Shown piece after piece: positions 21,265-64,000 of a stretch of DNA of 64,000 nucleotides. Every line of letters starts with the position of its first letter. Position 1 is the first letter of the stretch. The position numbers were made by a program, and so were the translations under genes. This DNA comes from Nannobrachium achirus (Eukaryota > Chordata > Actinopteri > Myctophiformes > Myctophidae), in NCBI GenBank assembly GCA_963921795.1, contig OY997640.1:9226737-9290736 (forward strand). The letters are read 5' to 3'. Below the pieces are notes generated by a model. The model saw nothing but the letters and a program-made list of their open reading frames with translations. It had not been told where the DNA came from and searched no databases.

Positions 21265-21303
<39 letters not shown>

Positions 21304-24038: not shown

Positions 24039-24090
<52 letters not shown>

Positions 24091-27431: not shown

Positions 27432-27478
<47 letters not shown>

Positions 27479-30145: not shown

Positions 30146-30177
30146 CATGGTCACGCCGCGCAGAGCACGCACCCGAG

Positions 30178-30290: not shown

Positions 30291-30292
30291 GC

Positions 30293-30469: not shown

Positions 30470-30895
30470 GTACGGTAAATACATTGTTTTTGTTTTGGTT
30501 AGGATTGGCACATTGATAACGTTTATAGTTTCTGTGTGTTTGGTGTTTGTGTGCTCAGTTAATTTCATACGAGTAATTTAACCTCGGAGGCCACACAGCA
30601 CCGTCGATGTTTCAGTTGATATTTCAATTTGCAATCATTTGGGAGACGGTTTTGACCGTGTCAGCTGTAAGTTAGCTAGCAGTTGCTGCCTTTGTATTTT
30701 GTTGTTAGCGTCAGGACACGCTGCTGTAAACAATCACGTTAACTTGTCAACATGTTGGTGTTTGGGAATCATTCCCAAAGCCTATTTAAAACGACGGTGC
30801 GCCTCCGTCATCTCCACCGAAAACAAGCGCTCCTTTACAAGAACCTAACGGAACCCTGGTGGTGGGTTCGGGTCATGGTTCACGCGTTTAAACTA

Positions 30896-31329
30896 ACTGA
30901 AAAACGTTATTATTTTAATAAACATTTGATTTAACTAGGCTAATAAATGTTAAGCTCAGTTGTAATAATGTCCACATAAACGTAAATCCTTCAAAACGTC
31001 GTGCAGAGGCCGTTGTTCGTTGTATATTTTTAAACTTGGCACTGTGTCAGTTCGGACCAATGAGAGCGACGCATGCTGCGGTGACGTCACACGCTTTTAA
31101 AACTGCCCTCGGAGTTGAAACCTGGAAGTTATCTGACAAACGTTATTATTTTAATCAACATTTGATTTAACTAGGCTAATAAATGTTAAGCTCAGTTGTA
31201 CTAATATCCACATAAACGTAATACTTTCAAAACGTCGTGCAGAGGCCGTTGTTCCGTTGTATGTTTTTGAATTTGGCCCGGTGTCAGTTTGGACCAATGA
31301 GAGCGACGCATGCCGCGGTGACGTCACAG
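30896..31329. repeat. Tandem duplication of a CCAAT/CRE promoter-like module
   Basis: 30896-31092 and 31132-31329 align with an offset of 236-237 bp. Each copy ends with GGACCAATGAGAGCGACG and a palindromic CRE TGACGTCA (31082-31089 and 31319-31326). The same GGACCAATGAG motif opens the promoter at 30178. Confidence 0.8.
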
Positions 31330-32290
31330 CGGTGGAGGTTCGGGAAACTTCGGCTTTTAACGGGCAGGTTCGACCGGGTTTAAACCTCTCTCTCGGTGTT
31401 GCCATGTCTGCTTATTATAAGCGACTTGTTTTTCTGTAAAGTTTTGCAAAGTATTGATACTTGTTACGTGAGCTTGAGTTGGTTTTTAGGCTATTTATCT
31501 TCAAAGCGTTAGCGTGTCAGCGGGCCGTTGCGCGGTTGCTATGGTGGTTGGTTGCTATGTACAATAACAGTACGCCACTTCATGTGGCCTGTAGTCGCTT
31601 GTTTTCGTGGACTAGGTTGCTTATTTCACCAGCTAAATCTGGCAAACAACACAGAACACTCGAAGCAACGTAAATGAATGAAGGGAAAATATTAAGGATC
31701 TACTCGTTTAATCCACTGGTTCTCAAACTGTTTCATGTCAAGGACCCCCAAATTGACTATTACTAGTCCGCGGACCCCCATTTGAAAATATAACTTCCAT
31801 TTGTACACTCAAGCGTGCGTTACAGACCCATAAGGGTCAATTTTGTTCCTCATATCATTTAGCCGGGGACCCTCTAGGTCCCCCTCAAGGACCCATATGG
31901 GGGTCCCCGGAACCAACTTTGAGAACCAGTGATGTAAGGAATGAAGGGAAAAGTTTAAGGATCTGCTCGTTTGACCGGTGGAGGACGCTAAAGTTCTGTA
32001 CAAAAAAAAGAAAGTATTGCAAAATGTAGGTCTATCGTTTTCAGTTCTGTTTATTTGTATGTTTATATGTCACGTTAGAACAATGCTAAAAACAGTTGTG
32101 CAGTAAAACCTTTTAGGTGGTTAAGATCTAATAATTGGTTGTTGGACATGCATGGTTAAATTGGAATGGTTGAGATCTTATACTGTTGGTTGTTTGTTTG
32201 ACATAGTTAATGGGTTGTTGAGGCTAGATATTTGGGCCGTATTTATTTTTTTGATTGATTGATTGATTGATTGATTGAAGAGTGAAGACT
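31330..32290. other. Intron-like sequence before the tandem arrays
   Basis: No exon seen. It contains a MITE at 31714-31932 and a short (TTGA)n tract at 32252-32277 directly before the first 1.41-kb unit. Confidence 0.65.
31714..31932. mobile_element. hAT-like MITE
   Basis: Ends CACTGGTTCTCAAACTG and CTTTGAGAACCAGTG. The interior (GTTACAGACCCATAAGGG) is related to the elements at 5558 and 17460. No clean flanking duplication. Confidence 0.65.
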
Positions 32291-37606: not shown

Positions 37607-37922
37607 GCCCTAGTGTAGCTGTTAGAGCACACGCCTTTCCCGTCGTGGGTTCAAACGCAGCTGGGGTCGACGTCAGCGTGGAATTGCGTTCGCAACGGGC
37701 CCCATATTGTAAATCGCTCTGGATCAAGACCTGCTTGATTTTCGCGTAAGTATTAACTGAGTAAGTATGGAAAGATGTCCCCTTTATTCACAGGTCATAT
37801 ACAGTTGCAGTGCATCCAGGAGATGATGCCTACATAATATTGTAAATGTTTGTTATTTATTTTTAAAAATTGGTTCCTGGTTTACCTACGTTTTTAGGTT
37901 ACTACTTCTAGGCATGTGATAT

Positions 37923-38359
37923 GGGGCCGCCCTAGTGTTGCTGTTAGAGCACACGCCTTTCCCGTCGTAGGTTCAAACGCAGCCGGGGTCGACGTCAGCA
38001 AGGAAACGCGGTCGCAATGGGCCCCTTGTTCTGAATAGGGGCCGCCCTAGTGTAGCTGTTAGAGCACACGCCTTTCCCGTCGTGGGTTCAAACGCAGCTG
38101 GGGTCGACGTCAGCGTGGAATTGCGGTCGCAACGGGCCCCATATTGTAAATCGCTCTGGATCAAGACCTGCTTGATTTTCACGTAAGTATTAACTGAGTA
38201 AGTATGGAAAGATGTCCCCTTTACTGACAGATAATTTACAGTTGCAGTGCATCCAGGAGATGATTCCTACATAATATTGTAAATGTTTTTTATTTATTTT
38301 TAAAAATTGGTTCTTGGTTTACCTACGTTTTTAGGTTACTACTTCTAGGCATGTGATAT
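37923..38359 (+). repeat. Module D: dimeric tRNA-derived SINE plus spacer (first copy)
   Basis: The left monomer begins GGGGCCGCCCTAG at 37923 and the right monomer begins identically at 38038, 115 bp later. Each has an A-box-like TAGCTGTTAGAGC (left GTTGCTG variant) and a B-box GGTTCAAACGC, one mismatch from consensus. Only the right monomer carries the tail TGTAAATCGCTCTGGATC, resembling the 3' tail of many fish SINEs. Later D copies start at 38360, 39246, 39683, 40568, 41005 and so on to 63815. A 69-codon minus-strand frame in each copy is a by-product of the SINE. Confidence 0.88.
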
Positions 38360-38821
38360 GGGGCTGCCCCTAGTGTTGCTGTTAGAGCACACGCCTTTCC
38401 CGCCGTGGGTTCAAAAGCAGCCGGGGTCGACGTCAGCAAGGAAACGCGGTCGCAATGGGCCCCTTGTTCTGAATAGGGGCCGCCCTATTGTAGCTGTTAG
38501 CGCACACGCCTTTCCCGTCGTGGGTTCAAACGCAGCTGGGGTCGACGTCAGCGTGGAATTGCGGTCGCAACGGGCCCCGTATTGTAATTCGCTCTGGATC
38601 AAGACCTGCTTGATTTTCACGTAAGTATTAACTGAGTAAGTATGGAAAGATGTCCCCTTTATTCACAGGTCATATACAGTTGCAGGCATCCTATAGGTAA
38701 GGTATGAAACAATGTTTACTTAACTGTATTGTTCTAAATTTCATTTCTGACTCTGTTGGATTCTTGTTGTTTATAATATACTGTATATCTAATCTACTTT
38801 TCTTTTTCTTTTTTTTTACAG

Positions 38822-39051
38822 GTTCCTCTCCGAAGGAACCATCACCTTAGCGTGGTGGAGAGGTTTGCGTGCCCCAATGAACCTGAGAGCTGTGTTGTCT
38901 GGTGCCTTGTGCTCCTGGAAGGGTCTCCCATGGCAAATTGGTCTCTGGGGAGGGGCCTGACTAAGAATGGTTCAAGAAGACCCAAAGAGGATGATGAAGA
39001 GTATTAGTTCGATCAGAAGGCATTTGAGATCATTTCACTCCATCAGACAAG
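38822..39051 (+). other. Module E exon-like cassette, copy 1
   Basis: A 230-bp block preceded by an outstanding acceptor (TTTTTCTTTTTTTTTACAG) and followed by a strong donor (GACAAG|GTAAGC). Frame 1 is open for 61 codons (VPLRRNHHLSVVERFACPNE to KEDDEEY, then TAG), but the length is not a multiple of 3 and no start codon leads it, so coding is doubtful. Part of the block (CACCTTAGCGTGGTGGAGAG, CCCATGGCAAATTGG) resembles, from memory, a motif common in fish repeats, so it may be an exonised transposon fragment. Its last 51 bp match an exon-like end inside the 1.41-kb units. Confidence 0.6.
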
Positions 39052-40143
39052 GTAAGCTTGATTTTCACTTAAGTATTAACTGAGTAAGTATGGAAAGATG
39101 TCCCCTTTATTCACAGGTCATATACAGTTGCAGTGCAACCAGGAGATGATGCCTACATAATATTGTAACTGTTTTTTATTTATTTTTAAAAATTGGTTCC
39201 TGGTTTACCTACGTTTTTAGGTTACTACTTCTAGGCATGTGATATGGGGCCGCCCTAGTGTTGCTGTTAGATCACACGCCTTTCCCGCCGTGGGTTCAAA
39301 CGCAGCCGGGGTCGACGTCAGCAAGGAAACGCGGTCGCAATGGGCCCCTTGTTCTGAATAGGGGCCGCCCTAGTGTAGCTGTTAGAGCACGCGCCTTTCC
39401 CGTCGTGGGTTCAAACGCAGCTGGGGTCGACGTCAGCGTGGAATTGCGGTCGCAACGGGCCCCATATTGTAAATCGCTCTGGATCAAGACCTGCTTGATT
39501 TTCACGTAAGTATTAACTGAGTAAGTATGGAAAGATGTCCCCTTTATTCACAGGTCATATACAGTTGCAGTGCATCCAGGAGATGATGCCTACATAATAT
39601 TGTAAATGTTTGTTATTTATTTTTAAAAATTGGTTCCTGGTTTACCTACGTTTTTAGGTTACTACTTCTAGGCATGTGATATGGGGCCGCCCTAGTGTTG
39701 CTGTTAGAGCACACGCCTTTCCCGTCGTAGGTTCAAACGCAGCCGGGGTCGACGTCAGCAAGGAAACGCGGTCGCAATGGGCCCCTTGTTCTGAATAGGG
39801 GCCGCCCTATTGTAGCTGTTAGCGCACGCGCCTTTCCCGTCGTGGGTTCAAACGCAGCTGGGGTCGACGTCAGCGTGGAATTGCGGTCGCAACGGGCCCC
39901 GTATTGTAATTCGCTCTGGATCAAGACCTGCTTGATTTTCACGTAAGTATTAACTGAGTAAGTATGGAAAGATGTCCCCTTTATTCACAGGTCATATACA
40001 GTTGCAGGCATCCTATAGGTAAGGTATGAAACAATGTTTACTTAACTGTATTGTTCTAAATTTCATTTCTGACTCTGTTGGATTCTTGTTGTTTATAATA
40101 TACTGTATATCTAATCTACTTTTCTTTTTCTTTTTTTTTACAG

Positions 40144-43100
40144 GTTCCTCTCCGAAGGAACCATCACCTTAGCGTGGTGGAGAGGTTTGCGTGCCCCAAT
40201 GAACCTGAGAGCTGTGTTGTCTGGTGCCTTGTGCTCCTGGAAGGGTCTCCCATGGCAAATTGGTCTCTGGGGAGGGGCCTGACTAAGAATGGTTCAAGAA
40301 GACCCAAAGAGGATGATGAAGAGTATTAGTTCGATCAGAAGGCATTTGAGATCATTTCACTCCATCAGACAAGGTAAGCTTGATTTTCACTTAAGTATTA
40401 ACTGAGTAAGTATGGAAAGATGTCCCCTTTATTCACAGGTCATATACAGTTGCAGTGCAACCAGGAGATGATGCCTACATAATATTGTAACTGTTTTTTA
40501 TTTATTTTTAAAAATTGGTTCTTGGTTTACCTACGTTTTTAGGTTACTATTTCTAGGCATGTGATATGGGGCCGCCCTAGTGTTGCTGTTAGATCACACG
40601 CCTTTCCCGCCGTGGGTTCAAACGCAGCCGGGGTCGACGTCAGCAAGGAAACGCGGTCGCAATGGGCCCCTTGTTCTGAATAGGGGCCGCCCTAGTGTAG
40701 CTGTTAGAGCACGCGCCTTTCCCGTCGTGGGTTCAAACGCAGCTGGGGTCGACGTCAGCGTGGAATTGCGGTCGCAACGGGCCCCATATTGTAAATCGCT
40801 CTGGATCAAGACCTGCTTGATTTTCACGTAAGTATTAACTGAGTAAGTATGGAAAGATGTCCCCTTTATTCACAGGTCATATACAGTTGCAGTGCATCCA
40901 GGAGATGATGCCTACATAATATTGTAAATGTTTGTTATTTATTTTTAAAAATTGGTTCCTGGTTTACCTACGTTTTTAGGTTACTACTTCTAGGCATGTG
41001 ATATGGGGCCGCCCTAGTGTTGCTGTTAGAGCACACGCCTTTCCCGTCGTAGGTTCAAACGCAGCCGGGGTCGACGTCAGCAAGGAAACGCGGTCGCAAT
41101 GGGCCCCTTGTTCTGAATAGGGGCCGCCCTAGTGTAGCTGTTAGAGCACACGCCTTTCCCGTCGTGGGTTCAAACGCAGCTCGGGTCGACGTCAGCGTGG
41201 AATTGCGGTCGCAACGGGCCCCATATTGTAAATCGCTCTGGATCAAGACCTGCTTGATTTTCACGTAAGTATTAACTGAGTAAGTATGGAAAGATGTCCC
41301 CTTTATTCACAGGTCATATACAGTTGGAGTGCATCCAGGAGATGATGCCTACATAATATTGTAAATGTTTGTTATTTATTTTTAAAAATTGGTTCCTGGT
41401 TTACCTACGTTTTTAGGTTACTACTTCTAGGCATGTGATATGGGGCCGCCCTAGTGTTGCTGTTAGAGCACACGCCTTTCCCGTCGTAGGTTCAAACGCA
41501 GCCGGGGTCGACGTCAGCAAGGAAACGCGGTCGCAATGGGCCCCTTGTTTTGAATAGGGGCCGCCCTAGTGTAGCTGTTAGAGCACACGCCTTTCCCGTC
41601 GTGGGTTCAAACGCAGCTGGGGTCGACGTCAGCGTGGAATTGCGGTCGCAACGGGCCCCATATTGTAAATCGCTCTGGATCAAGACCTGCTTGATTTTCA
41701 CGTAAGTATTAACTGAGTAAGTATGGAAAGATGTCCCCTTTATTCACAGGTCATATACAGTTGCAGTGCATCCAGGAGATGATGCCTACATAATATTGTA
41801 AATGTTTGTTATTTATTTTTAAAAATTGGTTCCTGGTTTACCTACGTTTTTAGGTTACTACTTCTAGGCATGTGATATGGGGCCGCCCTAGTGTTGCTGT
41901 TAGAGCACACGCCTTTCCCGTCGTAGGTTCAAACGCAGCCGGGGTCGACGTCAGCAAGGAAACGCGGTCGCAATGGGCCCCTTGTTCTGAATAGGGGCCG
42001 CCCTATTGTAGCTGTTAGCGCACACGCCTTTCCCGTCGTGGGTTCAAACGCAGCTGGGGTCGACGTCAGCGTGGAATTGCGGTCGCAACGGGCCCCGTAT
42101 TGTAATTCGCTCTGGATCAAGACCTGCTTGATTTTCACGTAAGTATTAACTGAGTAAGTATGGAAAGATGTCCCCTTTATTCACAGGTCATATACAGTTG
42201 CAGGCATCCTATAGGTAAGGTATGAAACAATGTTTACTTAACTGTATTGTTCTAAATTTCATTTCTGACTCTGTTGGATTCTTGTTGTTTATAATATACT
42301 GTATATCTAATCTACTTTTCTTTTTCTTTTTTTTTACAGGTTCCTCTCCGAAGGAACCATCACCTTAGCGTGGTGGAGAGGTTTGCGTGCCCCAATGAAC
42401 CTGAGAGCTGTGTTGTCTGGTGCCTTGTGCTCCTGGAAGGGTCTCCCATGGCAAATTGGTCTCTGGGGAGGGGCCTGACTAAGAATGGTTCAAGAAGACC
42501 CAAAGAGGATGATGAAGAGTATTAGTTCGATCAGAAGGCATTTGAGATCATTTCACTCCATCAGACAAGGTAAGCTTGATTTTCACTTAAGTATTAACTG
42601 AGTAAGTATGGAAAGATGTCCCCTTTATTCACAGGTCATATACAGTTGCAGTGCAACCAGGAGATGATGCCTACATAATATTGTAACTGTTTTTTATTTT
42701 TTTTTAAAAATTGGTTCTTGGTTTACCTACGTTTTTAGGTTACTATTTCTAGGCATGTGATATGGGGCCGCCCTAGTGTTGCTGTTAGAGCACACGCCTT
42801 TCCCGCCGTGGGTTCAAACGTAGCTGGGGTCGACGTCAGCGTGGAATTGCGGTCGCAACGGGCCCCATATTGTAAATCGCTCTGGATCAAGACCTGCTTG
42901 ATTTTCACGTAAGTATTAACTGAGTAAGTATGGAAAGATGTCCCCTTTATTCACAGGTCATATACAGTTGCAGTGCATCCAGGAGATGATGCCTACATAA
43001 TATTGTAAATGTTTGTTATTTATTTTTAAAAATTGGTTCCTGGTTTACCTACGTTTTTAGGTTACTACTTCTAGGCATGTGATATGGGGCCGCCCTAGTG

Positions 43101-46100
43101 TTGCTGTTAGAGCACACGCCTTTCCCGTCGTAGGTTCAAACGCAGCCGGGGTCGACGTCAGCAAGGAAACGCGGTCGCAATGGGCCCCTTGTTCTGAATA
43201 GGGGCCGCCCTAGTGTAGCTGTTAGAGCACACGCCTTTCCCGCCGTGGGTTCAAACGCAGCTGGGGTCGACGTCAGCGTGGAATTGCGGTCGCAACGGGC
43301 CCCATATTGTAAATCGCTCTGGATCAAGACCTGCTTGATTTTCACGTAAGTATTAACTGAGTAAGTATGGAAAGATGTCCCCTTTATTCACAGGTCATAT
43401 ACAGTTGCAGTGCATCCAGGAGATGATGCCTACATAATATTGTAAATGTTTGTTATTTATTTTTAAAAATTGGTTCCTGGTTTACCTACGTTTTTAGATT
43501 ACTACTTCTAGGCATGTGATATGGGGCCGCCCTAGTGTTGCTGTTAGAGCACACGCCTTTCCCGTCGTAGGTTCAAACGCAGCCGGGGTCGACGTCAGCA
43601 AGGAAACGCGGTCGCAATGGGCCCCTTGTTCTGAATAAGGGCCGCCCTATTGTAGCTGTTAGAGCACACGCCTTTCCCGTCGTGGGTTCAAACGCAGCTG
43701 GGGTCGACGTCAGCGTGGAATTGCGGTCGCAACGGGCCCCATATTGTAAATCGCTCTGGATCAAGACCTGCTTGATTTTCACGTAAGTATTAACTGAGTA
43801 AGTATGGAAAGATGTCCCCTTTATTCACAGGTCATATACAGTTGGAGTGCATCCAGGAGATGATGCCTACATAATATTGTAAATGTTTGTTATTTATTTT
43901 TAAAAATTGGTTCCTGGTTTACCTACGTTTTTAGGTTACTACTTCTAGGCATGTGATATGGGGCCGCCCTAGTGTTGCTGTTAGAGCACACGCCTTTCCC
44001 GTCGTAGGTTCAAACGCAGCCGGGGTCGACGTCAGCAAGGAAACGCGGTCGCAATGGGCCCCTTGTTTTGAATAGGGGCCGCCCTAGTGTAGCTGTTAGA
44101 GCACACGCCTTTCCCGTCGTGGGTTCAAACGCAGCTGGGGTCGACGTCAGCGTGGAATTGCGGTCGCAACGGGCCCCATATTGTAAATCGCTCTGGATCA
44201 AGACCTGCTTGATTTTCACGTAAGTATTAACTGAGTAAGTATGGAAAGATGTCCCCTTTATTCACAGGTCATATACAGTTGCAGTGCATCCAGGAGATGA
44301 TGCCTACATAATATTGTAAATGTTTGTTATTTATTTTTAAAAATTGGTTCCTGGTTTACCTACGTTTTTAGGTTACTACTTCTAGGCATGTGATATGGGG
44401 CCGCCCTAGTGTTGCTGTTAGAGCACACGCCTTTCCCGTCGTAGGTTCAAACGCAGCCGGGGTCGACGTCAGCAAGGAAACGCGGTCGCAATGGGCCCCT
44501 TGTTCTGAATAGGGGCCGCCCTATTGTAGCTGTTAGCGCACACGCCTTTCCCGTCGTGGGTTCAAACGCAGCTGGGGTCGACGTCAGCGTGGAATTGCGG
44601 TCGCAACGGGCCCCGTATTGTAATTCGCTCTGGATCAAGACCTGCTTGATTTTCACGTAAGTATTAACTGAGTAAGTATGGAAAGATGTCCCCTTTATTC
44701 ACAGGTCATATACAGTTGCAGGCATCCTATAGGTAAGGTATGAAACAATGTTTACTTAACTGTATTGTTCTAAATTTCATTTCTGACTCTGTTGGATTCT
44801 TGTTGTTTATAATATACTGTATATCTAATCTACTTTTCTTTTTCTTTTTTTTTACAGGTTCCTCTCCGAAGGAACCATCACCTTAGCGTGGTGGAGAGGT
44901 TTGCGTGCCCCAATGAACCTGAGAGCTGTGTTGTCTGGTGCCTTGTGCTCCTGGAAGGGTCTCCTATGGCAAATTGGTCTCTGGGGAGGGGCCTGACTAA
45001 GAATGGTTCAAGAAGACCCAAAGAGGATGATGAAGAGTATTAGTTCGATCAGAAGGCATTTGAGATCATTTCACTCCATCAGACAAGGTAAGCTTGATTT
45101 TCACTTAAGTATTAACTGAGTAAGTATGGAAAGATGTCCCCTTTATTCACAGGTCATATACAGTTGCAGTGCAACCAGGAGATGATGCCTACATAATATT
45201 GTAACTGTTTTTTATTTTTTTTTAAAAATTGGTTCTTGGTTTACCTACGTTTTTAGGTTACTATTTCTAGGCATGTGATATGGGGCCGCCCTAGTGTTGC
45301 TGTTAGAGCACACGCCTTTCCCGCCGTGGGTTCAAACGTAGCTGGGGTCGACGTCAGCGTGGAATTGCGGTCGCAACGGGCCCCATATTGTAAATCGCTC
45401 TGGATCAAGACCTGCTTGATTTTCACGTAAGTATTAACTGAGTAAGTATGGAAAGATGTCCCCTTTATTCACAGGTCATATACAGTTGCAGTGCATCCAG
45501 GAGATGATGCCTACATAATATTGTAAATGTTTGTTATTTATTTTTAAAAATTGGTTCCTGGTTTACCTACGTTTTTAGGTTACTACTTCTAGGCATGTGA
45601 TATGGGGCCGCCCTAGTGTTGCTGTTAGAGCACACGCCTTTCCCGTCGTAGGTTCAAACGCAGCCGGGGTCGACGTCAGCAAGGAAACGCGGTCGCAATG
45701 GGCCCCTTGTTCTGAATAGGGGCCGCCCTATTGTAGCTGTTAGAGCACACGCCTTTCCCGTCGTGGGTTCAAACGCAGCTGGGGTCGACGTCAGCGTGGA
45801 ATTGCGGTCGCAACGGGCCCCATATTGTAAATCGCTCTGGATCAAGACCTGCTTGATTTTCACGTAAGTATTAACTGAGTAAGTATGGAAAGATGTCCCC
45901 TTTATTCACAGGTCATATACAGTTGGAGTGCATCCAGGAGATGATGCCTACATAATATTGTAAATGTTTGTTATTTATTTTTAAAAATTGGTTCCTGGTT
46001 TACCTACGTTTTTAGGTTACTACTTCTAGGCATGTGATATGGGGCCGCCCTAGTGTTGCTGTTAGAGCACACGCCTTTCCCGTCGTAGGTTCAAACGCAG

Positions 46101-49100
46101 CCGGGGTCGACGTCAGCAAGGAAACGCGGTCGCAATGGGCCCCTTGTTTTGAATAGGGGCCGCCCTAGTGTAGCTGTTAGAGCACACGCCTTTCCCGTCG
46201 TGGGTTCAAACGCAGCTGGGGTCGACGTCAGCGTGGAATTGCGGTCGCAACGGGCCCCATATTGTAAATCGCTCTGGATCAAGACCTGCTTGATTTTCAC
46301 GTAAGTATTAACTGAGTAAGTATGGAAAGATGTCCCCTTTATTCACAGGTCATATACAGTTGCAGTGCATCCAGGAGATGATGCCTACATAATATTGTAA
46401 ATGTTTGTTATTTATTTTTAAAAATTGGTTCCTGGTTTACCTACGTTTTTAGGTTACTACTTCTAGGCATGTGATATGGGGCCGCCCTAGTGTTGCTGTT
46501 AGAGCACACGCCTTTCCCGTCGTAGGTTCAAACGCAGCCGGGGTCGACGTCAGCAAGGAAACGCGGTCGCAATGGGCCCCTTGTTCTGAATAGGGGCCGC
46601 CCTATTGTAGCTGTTAGCGCACACGCCTTTCCCGTCGTGGGTTCAAACGCAGCTGGGGTCGACGTCAGCGTGGAATTGCGGTCGCAACGGGCCCCGTATT
46701 GTAATTCGCTCTGGATCAAGACCTGCTTGATTTTCACGTAAGTATTAACTGAGTAAGTATGGAAAGATGTCCCCTTTATTCACAGGTCATATACAGTTGC
46801 AGGCATCCTATAGGTAAGGTATGAAACAATGTTTACTTAACTGTATTGTTCTAAATTTCATTTCTGACTCTGTTGGATTCTTGTTGTTTATAATATACTG
46901 TATATCTAATCTACTTTTCTTTTTCTTTTTTTTTACAGGTTCCTCTCCGAAGGAACCATCACCTTAGCGTGGTGGAGAGGTTTGCGTGCCCCAATGAACC
47001 TGAGAGCTGTGTTGTCTGGTGCCTTGTGCTCCTGGAAGGGTCTCCCATGGCAAATTGGTCTCTGGGGAGGGGCCTGACTAAGAATGGTTCAAGAAGACCC
47101 AAAGAGGATGATGAAGAGTATTAGTTCGATCAGAAGGCATTTGAGATCATTTCACTCCATCAGACAAGGTAAGCTTGATTTTCACTTAAGTATTAACTGA
47201 GTAAGTATGGAAAGATGTCCCCTTTATTCACAGGTCATATACAGTTGCAGTGCAACCAGGAGATGATGCCTACATAATATTGTAACTGTTTTTTATTTAT
47301 TTTTAAAAATTGGTTCCTGGTTTACCTACGTTTTTAGGTTACTACTTCTAGGCATGTGATATGGGGCCGCCCTAGTGTTGCTGTTAGAGCACACGCCTTT
47401 CCCGCCGTGGGTTCAAACGTAGCTGGGGTCGACGTCAGCGTGGAATTGCGGTCGCAACGGGCCCCATATTGTAAATCGCTCTGGATCAAGACCTGCTTGA
47501 TTTTCACGTAAGTATTAACTGAGTAAGTATGGAAAGATGTCCCCTTTATTCACAGGTCATATACAGTTGCAGTGCATCCAGGAGATGATGCCTACATAAT
47601 ATTGTAAATGTTTGTTATTTATTTTTAAAAATTGGTTCCTGGTTTACCTACGTTTTTAGGTTACTACTTCTAGGCATGTGATATGGGGCCGCCCTAGTGT
47701 TGCTGTTAGAGCACACGCCTTTCCCGTCGTAGGTTCAAACGCAGCCGGGGTCGACGTCAGCAAGGAAACGCGGTCGCAATGGGCCCCTTGTTCTGAATAG
47801 GGGCCGCCCTAGTGTAGCTGTTAGAGCACACGCCTTTCCCGCCGTGGGTTCAAACGCAGCTGGGGTCGACGTCAGCGTGGAATTGCGGTCGCAACGGGCC
47901 CCATATTGTAAATCGCTCTGGATCAAGACCTGCTTGATTTTCACGTAAGTATTAACTGAGTAAGTATGGAAAGATGTCCCCTTTATTCACAGGTCATATA
48001 CAGTTGCAGTGCATCCAGGAGATGATGCCTACATAATATTGTAAATGTTTGTTATTTATTTTTAAAAATTGGTTCCTGGTTTACCTACGTTTTTAGGTTA
48101 CTACTTCTAGGCATGTGATATGGGGCCGCCCTAGTGTTGCTGTTAGAGCACACGCCTTTCCCGTCGTAGGTTCAAACGCAGCCGGGGTCGACGTCAGCAA
48201 GGAAACGCGGTCGCAATGGGCCCCTTGTTCTGAATAGGGGCCGCCCTATTGTAGCTGTTAGAGCACACGCCTTTCCCGTCGTGGGTTCAAACGCAGCTGG
48301 GGTCGACGTCAGCGTGGAATTGCGGTCGCAACGGGCCCCATATTGTAAATCGCTCTGGATCAAGACCTGCTTGATTTTCACGTAAGTATTAACTGAGTAA
48401 GTATGGAAAGATGTCCCCTTTATTCACAGGTCATATACAGTTGGAGTGCATCCAGGAGATGATGCCTACATAATATTGTAAATGTTTGTTATTTATTTTT
48501 AAAAATTGGTTCCTGGTTTACCTACGTTTTTAGGTTACTACTTCTAGGCATGTGATATGGGGCCGCCCTAGTGTTGCTGTTAGAGCACACGCCTTTCCCG
48601 TCGTAGGTTCAAACGCAGCCGGGGTCGACGTCAGCAAGGAAACGCGGTCGCAATGGGCCCCTTGTTTTGAATAGGGGCCGCCCTAGTGTAGCTGTTAGAG
48701 CACACGCCTTTCCCGTCGTGGGTTCAAACGCAGCTGGGGTCGACGTCAGCGTGGAATTGCGGTCGCAACGGGCCCCATATTGTAAATCGCTCTGGATCAA
48801 GACCTGCTTGATTTTCACGTAAGTATTAACTGAGTAAGTATGGAAAGATGTCCCCTTTATTCACAGGTCATATACAGTTGCAGTGCATCCAGGAGATGAT
48901 GCCTACATAATATTGTAAATGTTTGTTATTTATTTTTAAAAATTGGTTCCTGGTTTACCTACGTTTTTAGGTTACTACTTCTAGGCATGTGATATGGGGC
49001 CGCCCTAGTGTTGCTGTTAGAGCACACGCCTTTCCCGTCGTAGGTTCAAACGCAGCCGGGGTCGACGTCAGCAAGGAAACGCGGTCGCAATGGGCCCCTT

Positions 49101-52100: not shown

Positions 52101-55100
52101 GAGCACACGCCTTTCCCGTCGTGGGTTCAAACGCAGCTGGGGTCGACGTCAGCGTGGAATTGCGGTCGCAACGGGCCCCATATTGTAAATCGCTCTGGAT
52201 CAAGACCTGCTTGATTTTCACGTAAGTATTAACTGAGTAAGTATGGAAAGATGTCCCCTTTATTCACAGGTCATATACAGTTGCAGTGCATCCAGGAGAT
52301 GATGCCTACATAATATTGTAAATGTTTGTTATTTATTTTTAAAAATTGGTTCCTGGTTTACCTACGTTTTTAGGTTACTACTTCTAGGCATGTGATATGG
52401 GGCCGCCCTAGTGTTGCTGTTAGAGCACACGCCTTTCCCGTCGTAGGTTCAAACGCAGCCGGGGTCGACGTCAGCAAGGAAACGCGGTCGCAATGGGCCC
52501 CTTGTTCTGAATAGGGGCCGCCCTAGTGTAGCTGTTAGAGCACACGCCTTTCCCGCCGTGGGTTCAAACGCAGCTGGGGTCGACGTCAGCGTGGAATTGC
52601 GGTCGCAACGGGCCCCATATTGTAAATCGCTCTGGATCAAGACCTGCTTGATTTTCACGTAAGTATTAACTGAGTAAGTATGGAAAGATGTCCCCTTTAT
52701 TCACAGGTCATATACAGTTGCAGTGCATCCAGGAGATGATGCCTACATAATATTGTAAATGTTTGTTATTTATTTTTAAAAATTGGTTCCTGGTTTACCT
52801 ACGTTTTTAGGTTACTACTTCTAGGCATGTGATATGGGGCCGCCCTAGTGTTGCTGTTAAAGCACACGCCTTTCCCGTCGTAGGTTCAAACGCAGCCGGG
52901 GTCGACGTCAGCAAGGAAACGCGGTCGCAATGGGCCCCTTGTTCTGAATAGGGGCCGCCCTAGTGTAGCTGTTAGAGCACACGCCTTTCCCGCCGTGGGT
53001 TCAAACGCAGCTGAGGTCGACGTCAGCGTGGAATTGCGGTCGCAACGGGCCCCATATTGTAAATCGCTCTGGATCAAGACCTGCTTGATTTTCACGTAAG
53101 TATTAACTGAGTAAGTATGGAAAGATGTCCCCTTTATTCACAGGTCATATACAGTTGCAGGCATCCTATAGGTAAGGTATGAAACAATGTTTACTTAACT
53201 GTATTGTTCTAAATTTCATTTCGGACTCTGTTTGATTCTTGTTGTTTATAATATACTGTATATCTAATCTACTTTTCTTTTTCTTTTTTTTTACAGGTTC
53301 CTCTCCGAAGGAACCATCACCTTAGCGTGGTGGAGAGGTTTGCGTGCCCCAATGAACCTGAGAGCTGTGTTGTCTGGTGCCTTGTGCTCCTGGAAGGGTC
53401 TCCCATGGCAAATTGGTCTCTGGGGAGGGGCCTGACTAAGAATGGTTCAAGAAGACCCAAAGAGGATGATGAAGAGTATTAGTTCGATCAGAAGGCATTT
53501 GAGATCATTTCACTCCATCAGACAAGGTAAGCTTGATTTTCACTTAAGTATTAACTGAGTAAGTATGGAAAGATGTCCCCTTTATTCACAGGTCATATAC
53601 AGTTGCAGTGCAACCAGGAGATGATGCCTACATAATATTGTAAATGTTTGTTATTTATTTTTAAAAATTGGTTCCTGGTTTATCTACGTTTTTAGGTTAC
53701 TACTTCTAGGCATGTGATATGGGGCCGCCCTAGTGTTGCTGTTAGAGCACACGCCTTTCCCGTCGTAGGTTCAAACGCAGCCGGGGTCGACGTCAGCAAG
53801 GAAACGCGGTCGCAATGGGCCCCTTGTTCTGAATAGGGGCCGCCCTAGTGTAGCTGTTAGAGCACACGCCTTTCCCGTCGTGGGTTCAAACGCAGCTGGG
53901 GTCGACGTCAGCGTGGAATTGCGGTCGCAACGGGCCCCATATTGTAAATCGCTCTGGATCAAGACCTGCTTGATTTTCACGTAAGTATTAACTGAGTAAG
54001 TATGGAAAGATGTCCCCTTTATTCACAGGTCATATACAGTTGCAGTGCATCCAGGAGATGATGCCTACATAATATTGTAAATGTTTGTTATTTATTTTTA
54101 AAAATTGGTTCCTGGTTTACCTACGTTTTTAGGTTACTACTTCTAGGCATGTGATATGGGGCCGCCCTAGTGTTGCTGTTAGAGCACACGCCTTTCCCGT
54201 CGTAGGTTCAAACGCAGCCGGGGTCGACGTCAGCAAGGAAACGCGGTCGCAATGGGCCCCTTGTTCTGAATAGGGGCCGCCCTAGTGTAGCTGTTAGAGC
54301 ACACGCCTTTCCCGCCGTGGGTTCAAACGCAGCTGGGGTCGACGTCAGCGTGGAATTGCGGTCGCAACGGGCCCCATATTGTAAATCGCTCTGGATCAAG
54401 ACCTGCTTGATTTTCACGTAAGTATTAACTGAGTAAGTATGGAAAGATGTCCCCTTTATTCACAGGTCATATACAGTTGCAGTGCATCCAGGAGATGATG
54501 CCTACATAATATTGTAAATGTTTGTTATTTATTTTTAAAAATTGGTTCCTGGTTTACCTACGTTTTTAGGTTACTACTTCTAGGCATGTGATATGGGGCC
54601 GCCCTAGTGTTGCTGTTAGAGCACACGCCTTTCCCGTCGTAGGTTCAAACGCAGCCGGGGTCGACGTCAGCAAGGAAACGCGGTCGCAATGGGCCCCTTG
54701 TTCTGAATAGGGGCCGCCCTAGTGTAGCTGTTAGAGCACACGCCTTTCCCGTCGTGGGTTCAAACGCAGCTGGGGTCGACGTCAGCGTGGAATTGCGGTC
54801 GCAACGGGCCCCATATTGTAAATCGCTCTGGATCAAGACCTGCTTGATTTTCACGTAAGTATTAACTGAGTAAGTATGGAAAGATGTCCCCTTTATTCAC
54901 AGGTCATATACAGTTGCAGGCATCCTATAGGTAAGGTATGAAACAATGTTTACTTAACTGTATTGTTCTAAATTTCATTTCTGACTCTGTTTGATTCTTG
55001 TTGTTTATAATATACTGTATATCTAATCTACTTTTCTTTTTCTTTTTTTTTACAGGTTCCTCTCCGAAGGAACCATCACCTTAGCGTGGTGGAGAGGTTT

Positions 55101-58100
55101 GCGTGCCCCAATGAACCTGAGAGCTGTGTTGTCTGGTGCCTTGTGCTCCTGGAAGGGTCTCCCATGGCAAATTGGTCTCTGGGGAGGGGCCTGACTAAGA
55201 ATGGTTCAAGAAGACCCAAAGAGGATGATGAAGAGTATTAGTTCGATCAGAAGGCATTTGAGATCATTTCACTCCATCAGACAAGGTAAGCTTGATTTTC
55301 ACTTAAGTATTAACTGAGTAAGTATGGAAAGATGTCCCCTTTATTCACAGGTCATATACAGTTGCAGTGCAACCAGGAGATGATGCCTACATAATATTGT
55401 AAATGTTTGTTATTTATTTTTAAAAATTGGTTCCTGGTTTATCTACGTTTTTAGGTTACTACTTCTAGGCATGTGATATGGGGCCGCCCTAGTGTTGCTG
55501 TTAGAGCACACGCCTTTCCCGTCGTAGGTTCAAACGCAGCCGGGGTCGACGTCAGCAAGGAAACGCGGTCGCAATGGGCCCCTTGTTCTGAATAGGGGCC
55601 GCCCTATTGTAGCTGTTAGCGCACACGCCTTTCCCGTCGTGGGTTCAAACGCAGCTGGGGTCGACGTCAGCGTGGAATTGCGGTCGCAACGGGCCCCGTA
55701 TTGTAATTCGCTCTGGATCAAGACCTGCTTGATTTTCACGTAAGTATTAACTGAGTAAGTATGGAAAGATGTCCCCTTTATTCACAGGTCATATACAGTT
55801 GCAGGCATCCTATAGGTAAGGTATGAAACAATGTTTACTTAACTGTATTGTTCTAAATTTCATTTCTGACTCTGTTGGATTCTTGTTGTTTATAATATAC
55901 TGTATATCTAATCTACTTTTCTTTTTCTTTTTTTTTACAGGTTCCTCTCCGAAGGAACCATCACCTTAGCGTGGTGGAGAGGTTTGCGTGCCCCAATGAA
56001 CCTGAGAGCTGTGTTGTCTGGTGCCTTGTGCTCCTGGAAGGGTCTCCCATGGCAAATTGGTCTCTGGGGAGGGGCCTGACTAAGAATGGTTCAAGAAGAC
56101 CCAAAGAGGATGATGAAGAGTATTAGTTCGATCAGAAGGCATTTGAGATCATTTCACTCCATCAGACAAGGTAAGCTTGATTTTCACTTAAGTATTAACT
56201 GAGTAAGTATGGAAAGATGTCCCCTTTATTCACAGGTCATATACAGTTGCAGTGCAACCAGGAGATGATGCCTACATAATATTGTAACTGTTTTTTATTT
56301 TTTTTAAAAAATTGGTTCTTGGTTTACCTACGTTTTTAGGTTACTATTTCTAGGCATGTGATATGGGGCCGCCCTAGTGTTGCTGTTAGAGCACACGCCT
56401 TTCCCGCCGTGGGTTCAAACGTAGCTGGGGTCGACGTCAGCGTGGAATTGCGGTCGCAACGGGCCCCATATTGTAAATCGCTCTGGATCAAGACCTGCTT
56501 GATTTTCACGTAAGTATTAACTGAGTAAGTATGGAAAGATGTCCCCTTTATTCACAGGTCATATACAGTTGCAGTGCATCCAGGAGATGATGCCTACATA
56601 ATATTGTAAATGTTTGTTATTTATTTTTAAAAATTGGTTCCTGGTTTACCTACGTTTTTAGGTTACTACTTCTAGGCATGTGATATGGGGCCGCCCTAGT
56701 GTTGCTGTTAGAGCACACGCCTTTCCCGTCGTAGGTTCAAACGCAGCCGGGGTCGACGTCAGCAAGGAAACGCGGTCGCAATGGGCCCCTTGTTCTGAAT
56801 AGGGGCCGCCCTAGTGTAGCTGTTAGAGCACACGCCTTTCCCGTCGTGGGTTCAAACGCAGCTGGGGTCGACGTCAGCGTGGAATTGCGGTCGCAACGGG
56901 CCCCATATTGTAAATCGCTCTGGATCAAGACCTGCTTGATTTTCACGTAAGTATTAACTGAGTAAGTATGGAAAGATGTCCCCTTTACTGACAGATAATT
57001 TACAGTTGCAGTGCATCCAGGAGATGATTCCTACATAATATTTTAAATGTTTTTTATTTATTTTTAAAAATTGGTTCTTGGTTTACCTACGTTTTTAGGT
57101 TACTACTTCTAGGCATGTGATATGGGGCCGCCCTAGTGTAGCTGTTAGAGCACACGCCTTTCCCGTCGTGGGTTCAAACGCAGCTGGGGTCGACGTCAGC
57201 GTGGAATTGCGGTCGCAACGGGCCCCATATTGTAAATCGCTCTGGATCAAGACCTGCTTGATTTTCACGTAAGTATTAACTGAGTAAGTATGGAAAGATG
57301 TCCCCTTTATTCACAGGTCATATACAGTTGCAGGCATCCTATAGGTAAGGTATGAAACAATGTTTACTTAACTGTATTGTTCTAAATTTCATTTCTGACT
57401 CTGTTTGATTCTTGTTGTTTATAATATACTGTATATCTAATCTACTTTTCTTTTTCTTTTTTTTTACAGGTTCCTCTCCGAAGGAACCATCACCTTAGCG
57501 TGGTGGAGAGGTTTGCGTGCCCCAATGAACCTGAGAGCTGTGTTGTCTGGTGCCTTGTGCTTCTGGAAGGGTCTCCCATGGCAAATTGGTCTCTGGGGAG
57601 GGGCCTGACTAAGAATGGTTCAAGAAGACCCAAAGAGGATGATGAAGAGTATTAGTTCGATCAGAAGGCATTTGAGATCATTTCACTCCATCAGACAAGG
57701 TAAGCTTGATTTTCACTTAAGTATTAACTGAGTAAGTATGGAAAGATGTCCCCTTTATTCACAGGTCATATACAGTTGCAGTGCAACCAGGAGATGATGC
57801 CTACATAATATTGTAACTGTTTTTTATTTATTTTTAAAAATTGGTTCTTGGTTTACCTACGTTTTTAGGTTACTATTTCTAGGCATGTGATATGGGGCCG
57901 CCCTAGTGTTGCTGTTAGAGCACACGCCTTTCCCGCCGTGGGTTCAAACGCAGCCGGGGTCGACGTCAGCAAGGAAACGCGGTCGCAATGGGCCCCTTGT
58001 TCTGAATAGTGGCCGCCCTAGTGTAGCTGTTAGAGCACACGCCTTTCCCGTCGTGGGTTCAAACGCAGCTGGGGTCGACGTCAGCGTGGAATTGCGGTCG

Positions 58101-61100
58101 CAACGGGCCCCATATTGTAAATCGCTCTGGATCAAGACCTGCTTGATTTTCACGTAAGTATTAACTGAGTAAGTATGGAAAGATGTCCCCTTTATTCACA
58201 GGTCATATACAGTTGCAGTGCATCCAGGAGATGATGCCTACATAATATTGTAAATGTTTGTTATTTATTTTTAAAAATTGGTTCCTGGTTTACCTACGTT
58301 TTTAGGTTACTACTTCTAGGCATGTGATATGGGGCCGCCCTAGTGTTGCTGTTAGAGCACACGCCTTTCCCGTCGTAGGTTCAAACGCAGCCGGGGTCGA
58401 CGTCAGCAAGGAAACGCGGTCGCAATGGGCCCCTTGTTCTGAATAGGGGCCGCCCTAGTGTAGCTGTTAGAGCACACGCCTTTCCCGCCGTGGGTTCAAA
58501 CGCAGCTGGGGTCGACGTCAGCGTGGAATTGCGGTCGCAACGGGCCCCATATTGTAAATCGCTCTGGATCAAGACCTGCTTGATTTTCACGTAAGTATTA
58601 ACTGAGTAAGTATGGAAAGATGTCCCCTTTATTCACAGGTCATATACAGTTGCAGTGCATCCAGGAGATGATGCCTACATAATATTGTAAATGTTTGTTA
58701 TTTATTTTTAAAAATTGGTTCCTGGTTTACCTACGTTTTTAGGTTACTACTTCTAGGCATGTGATATGGGGCCGCCCTAGTGTTGCTGTTAGAGCACACG
58801 CCTTTCCCGTCGTAGGTTCAAACGCAGCCGGGGTCGACGTCAGCAAGGAAACGCGGTCGCAATGGGCCCCTTGTTCTGAATAGGGGCCGCCCTATTGTAG
58901 CTGTTAGAGCACACGCCTTTCCCGTCGTGGGTTCAAACGCAGCTGGGGTCGACGTCAGCGTGGAATTGCGGTCGCAACAGGCCCCATATTGTAAATCGCT
59001 CTGGATCAAGACCTGCTTGATTTTCACGTAAGTATTAACTGAGTAAGTATGGAAAGATGTCCCCTTTATTCACAGGTCATATACAGTTGGAGTGCATCCA
59101 GGAGATGATGCCTACATAATATTGTAAATGTTTGTTATTTATTTTTAAAAATTGGTTCCTGGTTTACCTACGTTTTTAGGTTACTACTTCTAGGCATGTG
59201 ATATGGGGCCGCCCTAGTGTTGCTGTTAGAGCACACGCCTTTCCCGTCGTAGGTTCAAACGCAGCCGGGGTCGACGTCAGCAAGGAAACGCGGTCGCAAT
59301 GGGCCCCTTGTTTTGAATAGGGGCCGCCCTAGTGTAGCTGTTAGAGCACACGCCTTTCCCGTCGTGGGTTCAAACGCAGCTGGGGTCGACGTCAGCGTGG
59401 AATTGCGGTCGCAACGGGCCCCATATTGTAAATCGCTCTGGATCAAGACCTGCTTGATTTTCACGTAAGTATTAACTGAGTAAGTATGGAAAGATGTCCC
59501 CTTTATTCACAGGTCATATACAGTTGCAGTGCATCCAGGAGATGATGCCTACATAATATTGTAAATGTTTGTTATTTATTTTTAAAAATTGGTTCCTGGT
59601 TTACCTACGTTTTTAGGTTACTACTTCTAGGCATGTGATATGGGGCCGCCCTAGTGTTGCTGTTAGAGCACACGCCTTTCCCGTCGTAGGTTCAAACGCA
59701 GCCGGGGTCGACGTCAGCAAGGAAACGCGGTCGCAATGGGCCCCTTGTTCTGAATAGGGGCCGCCCTATTGTAGCTGTTAGCGCACACGCCTTTCCCGTC
59801 GTGGGTTCAAACGCAGCTGGGGTCGACGTCAGCGTGGAATTGCGGTCGCAACGGGCCCCGTATTGTAATTCGCTCTGGATCAAGACCTGCTTGATTTTCA
59901 CGTAAGTATTAACTGAGTAAGTATGGAAAGATGTCCCCTTTATTCACAGGTCATATACAGTTGCAGGCATCCTATAGGTAAGGTATGAAACAATGTTTAC
60001 TTAACTGTATTGTTCTAAATTTCATTTCTGACTCTGTTGGATTCTTGTTGTTTATAATATACTGTATATCTAATCTACTTTTCTTTTTCTTTTTTTTTAC
60101 AGGTTCCTCTCCGAAGGAACCATCACCTTAGCGTGGTGGAGAGGTTTGCGTGCCCCAATGAACCTGAGAGCTGTGTTGTCTGGTGCCTTGTGCTCCTGGA
60201 AGGGTCTCCCATGGCAAATTGGTCTCTGGGGAGGGGCCTGACTAAGAATGGTTCAAGAAGACCCAAAGAGGATGATGAAGACTATTAGTTCGATCAGAAG
60301 GCATTTGAGATCATTTCACTCCATCAGACAAGGTAAGCTTGATTTTCACTTAAGTATTAACTGAGTAAGTATGGAAAGATGTCCCCTTTATTCACAGGTC
60401 ATATACAGTTGCAGTGCAACCAGGAGATGATGCCTACATAATATTGTAACTGTTTTTTATTTATTTTTAAAAATTGGTTCTTGGTTTACCTACGTTTTTA
60501 GGTTACTATTTCTAGGCATGTGATATGGGGCCGCCCTAGTGTTGCTGTTAGAGCACACGCCTTTCCCGCCGTGGGTTCAAACGCAGCCGGGGTCGACGTC
60601 AGCAAGGAAACGCGGTCGCAATGGGCCCCTTGTTCTGAATAGGGGCCGCCCTAGTGTAGCTGTTAGAGCACACGCCTTTCCCGTCGTGGGTTCAAACGCA
60701 GCTGGGGTCGACGTCAGCGTGGAATTGCGGTCGCAACGGGCCCCATATTGTAAATCGCTCTGGATCAAGACCTGCTTGATTTTCACGTAAGTATTAACTG
60801 AGTAAGTATGGAAAGATGTCCCCTTTATTCACAGGTCATATACAGTTGCAGTGCATCCAGGAGATGATGCCTACATAATATTGTAAATGTTTGTTATTTA
60901 TTTTTAAAAATTGGTTCCTGGTTTACCTACGTTTTTAGGTTACTACTTCTAGGCATGTGATATGGGGCCGCCCTAGTGTTGCTGTTAGAGCACACGCCTT
61001 TCCCGTCGTAGGTTCAAACGCAGCCGGGGTCGACGTCAGCAAGGAAACGCGGTCGCAATGGGCCCCTTGTTCTGAATAGGGGCCGCCCTAGTGTAGCTGT

Positions 61101-63620
61101 TAGAGCACACGCCTTTCCCGCCGTGGGTTCAAACGCAGCTGGGGTCGACGTCAGCGTGGAATTGCGGTCGCAACGGGCCCCATATTGTAAATCGCTCTGG
61201 ATCAAGACCTGCTTGATTTTCACGTAAGTATTAACTGAGTAAGTATGGAAAGATGTCCCCTTTATTCACAGGTCATATACAGTTGCAGTGCATCCAGGAG
61301 ATGATGCCTACATAATATTGTAAATGTTTGTTATTTATTTTTAAAAATTGGTTCCTGGTTTACCTACGTTTTTAGGTTACTACTTCTAGGCATGTGATAT
61401 GGGGCCGCCCTAGTGTTGCTGTTAAAGCACACGCCTTTCCCGTCGTAGGTTCAAACGCAGCCGGGGTCGACGTCAGCAAGGAAACGCGGTCGCAATGGGC
61501 CCCTTGTTCTGAATAGGGGCCGCCCTAGTGTAGCTGTTAGAGCACACGCCTTTCCCGCCGTGGGTTCAAACGCAGCTGAGGTCGACGTCAGCGTGGAATT
61601 GCGGTCGCAACGGGCCCCATATTGTAAATCGCTCTGGATCAAGACCTGCTTGATTTTCACGTAAGTATTAACTGAGTAAGTATGGAAAGATGTCCCCTTT
61701 ATTCACAGGTCATATACAGTTGCAGGCATCCTATAGGTAAGGTATGAAACAATGTTTACTTAACTGTATTGTTCTAAATTTCATTTCTGACTCTGTTTGA
61801 TTCTTGTTGTTTATAATATACTGTATATCTAATCTACTTTTCTTTTTCTTTTTTTTTACAGGTTCCTCTCCGAAGGAACCATCACCTTAGCGTGGTGGAG
61901 AGGTTTGCGTGCCCCAATGAACCTGAGAGCTGTGTTGTCTGGTGCCTTGTGCTCCTGGAAGGGTCTCCCATGGCAAATTGGTCTCTGGGGAGGGGCCTGA
62001 CTAAGAATGGTTCAAGAAGACCCAAAGAGGATGATGAAGAGTATTAGTTCGATCAGAAGGCATTTGAGATCATTTCACTCCATCAGACAAGGTAAGCTTG
62101 ATTTTCACTTAAGTATTAACTGAGTAAGTATGGAAAGATGTCCCCTTTATTCACAGGTCATATACAGTTGCAGTGCAACCAGGAGATGATGCCTACATAA
62201 TATTGTAACTGTTTTTTATTTTTTTTTAAAAATTGGTTCTTGGTTTACCTACGTTTTTAGGTTACTATTTCTAGGCATGTGATATGGGGCCGCCCTAGTG
62301 TTGCTGTTAGAGCACACGCCTTTCCCGCCGTGGGTTCAAACGTAGCTGGGGTCGACGTCAGCGTGGAATTGCGGTCGCAACGGGCCCCATATTGTAAATC
62401 GCTCTGGATCAAGACCTGCTTGATTTTCACGTAAGTATTAACTGAGTAAGTATGGAAAGATGTCCCCTTTATTCACAGGTCATATACAGTTGCAGTGCAT
62501 CCAGGAGATGATGCCTACATAATATTGTAAATGTTTGTTATTTATTTTTAAAAATTGGTTCCTGGTTTACCTACGTTTTTAGGTTACTACTTCTAGGCAT
62601 GTGATATGGGGCCGCCCTAGTGTTGCTGTTAGAGCACACGCCTTTCCCGTCGTAGGTTCAAACGCAGCCGGGGTCGACGTCAGCAAGGAAACGCGGTCGC
62701 AATGGGCCCCTTGTTCTGAATAGGGGCCGCCCTAGTGTAGCTGTTAGAGCACACGCCTTTCCCGTCGTGGGTTCAAACGCAGCTGGGGTCGACGTCAGCG
62801 TGGAATTGCGGTCGCAACGGGCCCCATATTGTAAATCGCTCTGGATCAAGACCTGCTTGATTTTCACGTAAGTATTAACTGAGTAAGTATGGAAAGATGT
62901 CCCCTTTACTGACAGATAATTTACAGTTGCAGTGCATCCAGGAGATGATTCCTACATAATATTTTAAATGTTTTTTATTTATTTTTAAAAATTGGTTCTT
63001 GGTTTACCTACGTTTTTAGGTTACTACTTCTAGGCATGTGATATGGGGCCGCCCTAGTGTAGCTGTTAGAGCACACGCCTTTCCCGTCGTGGGTTCAAAC
63101 GCAGCTGGGGTCGACGTCAGCGTGGAATTGCGGTCGCAACGGGCCCCATATTGTAAATCGCTCTGGATCAAGACCTGCTTGATTTTCACGTAAGTATTAA
63201 CTGAGTAAGTATGGAAAGATGTCCCCTTTATTCACAGGTCATATACAGTTGCAGGCATCCTATAGGTAAGGTATGAAACAATGTTTACTTAACTGTATTG
63301 TTCTAAATTTCATTTCTGACTCTGTTTGATTCTTGTTGTTTATAATATACTGTATATCTAATCTACTTTTCTTTTTCTTTTTTTTTACAGGTTCCTCTCC
63401 GAAGGAACCATCACCTTAGCGTGGTGGAGAGGTTTGCGTGCCCCAATGAACCTGAGAGCTGTGTTGTCTGGTGCCTTGTGCTTCTGGAAGGGTCTCCCAT
63501 GGCAAATTGGTCTCTGGGGAGGGGCCTGACTAAGAATGGTTCAAGAAGACCCAAAGAGGATGATGAAGAGTATTAGTTCGATCAGAAGGCATTTGAGATC
63601 ATTTCACTCCATCAGACAAG
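40144..63620 (+). repeat. Module E exon-like cassettes, copies 2-14
   Basis: Starts: 40144, 42340, 44858, 46939, 49457, 51538, 53297, 55056, 55941, 57470, 60103, 61862 and 63391, each 230 bp. Acceptor and donor are unchanged in all copies. Variants are rare: CTCCTATGG in copies 4 and 6, GTGCTTCTGG in 11 and 14, GAAGACTATTAG in 12. Confidence 0.9.
42765..43085 (+). repeat. Module m: single SINE monomer plus spacer (first copy)
   Basis: Begins like a left monomer (GTGTTGCTGTTAGAGC), then switches to right-monomer sequence (AGCTGGGGTCGACGTCAGCG), so one 115-bp monomer was lost by exchange inside a dimer. The private base in CAAACGTAGCTGG is shared by later copies near 45284, 47365, 49883, 56367 and 62287. 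Pure right-monomer singles (R) lie near 37607, 57123 and 63046. Confidence 0.85.
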
Positions 63621-64000
63621 GTAAGCTTGATTTTCACTTAAGTATTAACTGAGTAAGTATGGAAAGATGTCCCCTTTATTCACAGGTCATATACAGTTGC
63701 AGTGCAACCAGGAGATGATGCCTACATAATATTGTAACTGTTTTTTATTTATTTTTAAAAATTGGTTCTTGGTTTACCTACGTTTTTAGGTTACTATTTC
63801 TAGGCATGTGATATGGGGCCGCCCTAGTGTTGCTGTTAGAGCACACGCCTTTCCCGCCGTGGGTTCAAACGCAGCCGGGGTCGACGTCAGCAAGGAAACG
63901 CGGTCGCAATGGGCCCCTTGTTCTGAATAGTGGCCGCCCTAGTGTAGCTGTTAGAGCACACGCCTTTCCCGTCGTGGGTTCAAACGCAGCTGGGGTCGAC

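Follow-up and report, generated by a model that had tools for sequence, protein, structure and literature searches.

The DNA analysed here, referred to as the window, is a stretch of 64,000 nucleotides from Nannobrachium achirus (C3:9,226,737-9,290,736, where C3 is contig OY997640.1; the genome has 1.66 Gb in 564 contigs). It contains the gene TMEM192, a promoter-like and exon-1-like stretch called the head, and two tandem arrays (Table 1). Array 2 is the main subject of this analysis. It is not finished at the window end, as the original prediction had stated. When 94 kb beyond the window are added, the array block measures about 118 kb between ordinary genes, with its right end at ~155.6 kb in window coordinates.

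Table 1. Features of the locus (window coordinates) and exon arrays elsewhere in the genome (contig and Mb).
Feature	Position	Strand	Remarks
TMEM192, left neighbour	12220..27676	-	transcribed away from the array; Pfam PF14802
Promoter-like stretch of head	30171..30296	+	motifs that we take to be CCAAT-type and TATA-like TACATAAA
Exon-1-like sequence of head	30297..30469	+	GAAG/GTACGG donor; CTCF-like motif at 30398
Two copies of a 199-bp block	30894..31328	+	92% identity; each with GGACCAATGAG motif and TGACGTCA
Array 1	32290..37606	+	1,413-bp unit, ~3.8 copies; exon-like pieces, one CTCF-like motif per copy
Array 2	37607..64000, continuing to ~155.6 kb	+	SINE-like dimers (437), monomers (322), exon cassettes (448)
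B-type SINE-like head with 12-bp spacer, example	37923..38037	+	115 bp
A-type SINE-like head, example	38038..38140	+	103 bp; A-box-like and B-box-like motifs
First of 14 exon-like cassettes	38822..39051	+	230 bp
Starts of the other 13 cassettes	40144, 42340, 44858, 46939, 49457, 51538, 53297, 55056, 55941, 57470, 60103, 61862, 63391	+	
Exon array	C2:20.472-20.547 Mb		28 among the matches listed
Exon array	C3:4.884-4.937 Mb		21 among the matches listed
Exon array	C3:5.146-5.266 Mb		34 among the matches listed
Exon array	C3:6.268-6.297 Mb	minus	at least 17 among the matches listed

The Pfam family of TMEM192 is recognized in four exon reading frames, two of them above and two below the curated cut-off. 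The first coding exon of this gene holds a 15-bp tandem repeat (27573-27611), which reads as repeated DSPLI residues. Inside the gene, the piece at 23395-23474 matches the start of the 1,413-bp unit (76% over 80 columns). On the other side of the array, two exons downstream on the same strand (C3:9.383 Mb) match human SGSH (PDB 4mhx, E = 1.9e-48). KLHL2, proposed as the right-hand neighbour from synteny, was ruled out; the neighbour is the 3' part of SGSH.

Between TMEM192 and array 2 lie the head and array 1. The tandemly duplicated 199-bp block downstream of the exon-1-like sequence is a second promoter-like stretch, with motifs that are presumably CCAAT-type and TGACGTCA. Array 1 has 99.6% identity at a shift of one unit, and a diverged copy of its unit (78%) lies at 30,299-30,889. 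One 14-mer, which we take to be CTCF-like from 1 mismatch to the consensus, occurs in the head and in each array 1 copy (30398, 33218, 34631, 36044 and 37457). Sites with at most 1 mismatch number 7 in the window, including these 5, versus 0, 0, 0, 0, 2 and 0 in six first-order random sequences. Array 1 also has homologous pieces in the exon cassette with its intron (62 columns at 85% and 205 columns at 62%), so that both arrays seem to stem from one ancestral segment.

The CpG observed/expected ratio is 0.86 in the window part of array 2 and 1.11 in the head region, versus 0.54 in array 1; for the left and right flanks it is 0.57 and 0.32, respectively. The high values in array 2 and the head fit a recent origin or low methylation.

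Array 2 was parsed by scanning the + strand of the window for anchors of the A head, the B head and the exon cassette. From 37,607 on, this gives 48 A-type and 40 B-type SINE-like heads and 14 cassettes. The 88 heads are repeated head to tail, which is one trait of a SINE-derived satellite. Successive A heads are 437 bp (31 times), 438 bp (once), 322 bp (twice), 885 = 437 + 448 bp (7 times) or 770 = 322 + 448 bp (6 times) apart; one further distance, of 956 bp, is cut by the window end. The original prediction had held that modules of 437, 322 and 448 bp explain every spacing between cassettes, and all 13 exon-to-exon spacings are indeed sums of these lengths. In 13/13 complete cases the 448-bp piece lies within a SINE-bearing unit of 885 or 770 bp. 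It is therefore not an independent tandem unit. The inner monomer heads appear to be chimeric: of the nine diagnostic sites, the first has the B base and all remaining ones have A bases in 6 of 8 heads, and 2 of 8 are pure A. This fits a deletion by unequal exchange between neighbouring B and A heads, an argument that depends on one base.

Above the modules there are longer periods. Both nested periods proposed earlier were recovered by measurement, at 99.6% identity over 6,792 bp (4,599-bp period) and at 99.75% over 12,372 bp, DNA beyond the window included (5,921-bp period). The multi-monomer unit is more identical than its monomers, and array 2 is thus a higher-order repeat.

Over the extended C3 stretch, the counts rise to 173 for A heads, 150 for B heads and 56 for exon anchors, and all 323 head matches are on the + strand. 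The array is broken once, at ~91.7-110.5 kb in window coordinates, by an 18.9-kb block of other tandem repeats (units of ~1.5 kb at 93-98%, then others at 74-82%). When 437-bp SINE units of at least 300 bp are compared with one reference unit, mean identity is 98.1-99.8% per 10-kb bin, with no drop toward the array edges. This counts against a simple edge-decay model of unequal exchange, which predicts such a drop. At the right edge, identity does fall over the final three exon matches (97.4, 94.0 and 92.0%), of which the last two are partial.

An array of this kind might owe its length to an assembly artefact that inflated a short array, and the copy number may indeed be wrong. Nevertheless, the longest higher-order runs (shifts of 4,599, 5,921 and 8,565 bp) differ by 0.25-0.54%, unique genes flank the array, and arrays elsewhere in the genome have other periods. 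An artefact is thus very improbable.

The heads were described originally as tRNA-derived. Compared with the consensus sequences, and without a shuffled control, the A box matches at 11/11 letters in 29 of the 88 window heads and at 10/11 in 59. The B box, compared in the same way, matches at 10/11 letters in 82 and at 9/11 in 6. These box matches are what speaks for a tRNA origin. Neither ARAGORN nor Rfam (gathering score) finds a tRNA or known RNA gene in the window. For 37,300-40,000, Rfam with a limit of E up to 5 also finds nothing.

A second part of that description, a dispersed SINE as the source of the array, is unsupported so far. No SINE copies were found in the 32-kb flank. Genome-wide, a 34-mer from the SINE core has 1,323 exact matches and its reversed control 0. 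This C3 stretch holds 289 of the 1,323, and the C4 stretch 82. The first 100 matches listed all fall in one array (C2:20.468-20.518 Mb); if the listing follows contig order, none lies on C1 or in the first 20.4 Mb of C2. Diverged dispersed copies may be present in the genome.

The exon-like cassette is highly regular. Within the window, the exon has 230 bp in 14/14 copies with one acceptor and one donor throughout, and its sequence is identical in 9/14. In the extended C3 stretch, 43 of 55 near-full exons are identical. The donor is kept in 55/55 exons on C3 and in 10/10 on C4, the acceptor in 55/55 and 9/10. The claim of splice-competent signals is therefore upheld at the level of sequence. 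The exon length is not a multiple of 3 and there is a stop in every frame. No repeated open frame, as in a protein-coding exon repeat, runs through each copy. The exon may act as a last coding exon, with 61 codons in frame 1; Pfam assigns the frame-1 reading to 0 families.

Comparisons of exon with intron reveal no selective constraint on this exon or on exon 1. Between the consensus sequences of C3 and C4, the exon differs at 6/229 sites and the flanking intron at 6/121 (p = 0.35). Exon 1 of the head is no better kept than intron 1.

Outside sources of the exon were also considered. Its origin from a widespread coding segment, suggested by a presumed resemblance, was rejected: an IUPAC pattern has 0 matches in viral_contigs and 0 in genome_contigs. 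Peptide patterns matched 12 stretches in viral_contigs and 126 in genome_contigs, and none was confirmed. A DNA search of plasmids and phages with window positions 38,640-39,010 found no match. When the genome was searched with the exon itself, 40 of 799 candidates were scored, and all 40 are 100% matches from this C3 locus.

The exon sequence also occurs elsewhere in the genome. A 34-mer from it has 350 exact matches and the control 0; the first 100 matches listed of the 350 form the four additional arrays of Table 1. Together with the present locus and those at C4, C3:62.88 and C3:64.63 Mb, eight array loci were seen.

The head provides a second way to find related loci. A genome search with its 219 bp returned 23 rows. 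These are its own place, five matches at 84-88% (C4:54.844, C3:64.630, C3:62.872, C3:62.875 and, on the minus strand, C3:65.066 Mb), four inside array 1, a second piece at C3:65.067 Mb, and 12 weaker ones of 48-131 bp. Three of the 12 were placed relative to an array. They measure 79, 48 and 131 bp, and all three precede a listed array, 8.8-9.8 kb upstream and on the same strand as the first listed exon at C2:20.47, C3:4.88 and C3:5.15 Mb, respectively. Heads or weaker head matches thus precede the arrays other than the one at C3:6.27 Mb. Head matches also lie on C9, C19 and C20 and at C3:6.43, C3:6.68 and C3:10.37 Mb. At C4:54.844, C3:62.872 and C3:64.630 Mb, the promoter-like stretch again lies upstream of exon-1-like sequence; the first 95 bp of the window copy differ from the sister copies at ~20% of sites.

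The stretches that follow the sister heads keep one order. Head and then array, on one strand, are found in the window (30.3 to 37.6 kb), on C4, and at C3:62.87 and C3:64.63 Mb. Twelve probes of 600 bases were taken downstream of three sister heads: six have SINE heads or the array exon, in full or in part, one has pieces of cassette and intron, one has an array-1-like exon, and four have nothing. The four of these probes at C3:65.07 Mb revealed no SINE array and, in one of them, the array-1-like exon. Of 20 probes of 700 bases used to find array ends (C4 side and far right of C3), one has array sequence and one a 29-bp match. The C4 array extends over ~54.848-54.880 Mb, with 10 full exons and a period of 3,908 bp (99.6% over 8,011 bp). 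Its right flank has an AIG1-family reading frame (flank piece 1-1539, +) and eIF3a (5679-8828, -).

The arrays that were measured differ in their rhythm. The higher-order periods or commonest exon spacings are 2,687 bp on C2, 2,392 and 2,387 bp at C3:4.9 Mb, 3,770 and 2,844 bp at C3:5.2 Mb, and 2,006 bp at C3:6.27 Mb, where the difference between the two main exon spacings is 437 bp. Periods of at least 99.6% identity that differ between arrays suggest recent local amplification. The SINE spacing is of two kinds, 437 bp at this C3 locus and 316 bp on C4 and C2. Probes from C3:62.9 and 64.6 Mb match the C4 cassette at up to 98-99%. The spacing common to C4 and C2, together with these matches across loci, indicates that different loci can have module lengths in common.

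The SINE-like heads themselves are very similar between loci. The A and B head consensus has 0/218 differences between C3 and C4, versus 12/350 in exon and intron (p = 0.0045); because heads were selected by a 17-base anchor with at most 1 mismatch allowed, this part of them is biased toward similarity. In the A tail, 3/55 sites differ. The identity points to an exchange of heads between the arrays, the alternative being a constraint on the heads.

One account is a plain SINE-derived satellite: a SINE-bearing stretch with a chance exon-like piece was amplified, and no transcription unit is involved. Homogeneous head-to-tail units, nested periods and an exon lacking constraint are all in keeping with this, and SINE-derived satellites have already been published (PMC10702118). 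At four well-resolved loci, however, a common head precedes the array on its own strand, which would not be expected of a free satellite. We consider this account rather unlikely.

Alternatively, the locus could be a large non-autonomous mobile element with an expanded internal tandem repeat, the head being one end of the element. The single order at several places is suggestive of this, as is the left edge, the one that was compared: similarity to the sister heads begins abruptly there, at ~30,176-30,181 of the window. The right flank fits segmental duplication better. A genome search with the second SGSH exon gives four rows at three places, which are this locus, C3:62.641 Mb (minus strand) and C3:64.652 Mb; none of the rows is at the C4 array. 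The match at C3:64.652 Mb is split between two frames. This copy lies directly behind an array, as at C3:9.38 Mb, and the two places have a common array-to-SGSH junction (1.56 kb at 91%). The duplicated stretch thus exceeded the array, and a mobile element is improbable.

On balance, array 2 probably represents the interior of a gene-like segment after tandem expansion, and this segment is present at several loci. The best explanation is that segmental duplication spread the segment and that unequal exchange then amplified it locally. The segment would consist of the head, with its promoter-like stretch and its exon-1-like sequence with a donor, followed by exon-like and intron-like DNA. Within it, 115-bp tRNA-like SINE heads would have adjoined the 230-bp exon-like cassette. 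Segmental duplication would have carried it elsewhere, since a common order is observed at several loci. At each locus, unequal exchange between near-identical SINE heads and whole cassettes would have produced a separate array with its own higher-order period. The local unequal exchange is deduced from the module arithmetic, the chimeric monomers and the differing periods. Several observations count against this explanation: the exon shows no clear constraint, exon 1 is kept no better than intron 1, C3:65.07 Mb has no SINE array in the probes, SINE-unit identity does not drop toward the array edges, and some module lengths are common to several loci.

Transcription of the array from the head is possible. 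The product would be a long RNA in which the spliced 230-nt exon occurs many times, and array 2 could possibly give rise to a non-coding, spliced, repeat-rich RNA. A more far-reaching proposal, which is tentative and somewhat doubtful, would make the loci, 8 to perhaps 18 in number, a dispersed family of transcription units whose gene interior has become a satellite with a local rhythm. Copies would keep a promoter, a first exon and ~10 to >50 tandem 230-nt exons, and their SINE-like heads would be kept identical between chromosomes by exchange. If such a family exists, each unequal crossover would change the length and the exon number of the RNA.

Overall, the original prediction is partly supported: its modules, periods, splice signals and unfinished end were borne out, and its dispersed-SINE source was so far not supported. 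Its array start at 37,607 is right for array 2, and the repeat complex begins earlier, with the 1,413-bp array at 32,290-37,606. The prediction recognized the module array and missed the promoter-like head, the 1,413-bp array, the sister arrays and the downstream SGSH exons.

Several known systems resemble array 2 in part. The sSats of squamate reptiles are tandem arrays made from parts of SINEs, box B among them; their subvariants alternate, and homogeneity is greater in the longer loci (PMC10702118). Array 2 resembles them in these traits. The authors regard the restriction of sSats to squamates as uncertain (PMC10702118). The main sSat unit, however, comes from part of a single SINE; it measures 67 nt in snakes, and sSats occupy up to thousands of loci (PMC10702118). 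Array 2, by contrast, has SINE dimers alternating with a 448-bp exon cassette, an upstream head, eight array loci seen and a locus-specific higher-order structure. Among the papers listed in a literature search, judged by titles and abstract openings, there was no teleost array of SINE plus exon, which is no proof of absence.

DXZ4 and Firre, macrosatellite or lncRNA repeat loci, are likewise described as having large tandem units. Array 1, with one CTCF-like motif per copy, may be compared with them by its sequence. Unlike these loci, the window part of array 2 lacks any CTCF-like motif, even when 2 mismatches are allowed.

In alphoid-type satellites, monomers make up larger units, which are repeated with very high identity. 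Array 2 likewise has monomers in highly identical larger units, but it differs in its three module lengths, its exon-like cassette and its location between genes. SINE-derived satellites are known; the exon cassette, the common head and the multi-locus order set the present case apart. One structure here combines SINE-like sequence with a higher-order satellite and a gene-like segment. As it recurs at several places in a single genome, the steps from the interior of a gene-like segment to a satellite can be compared side by side.
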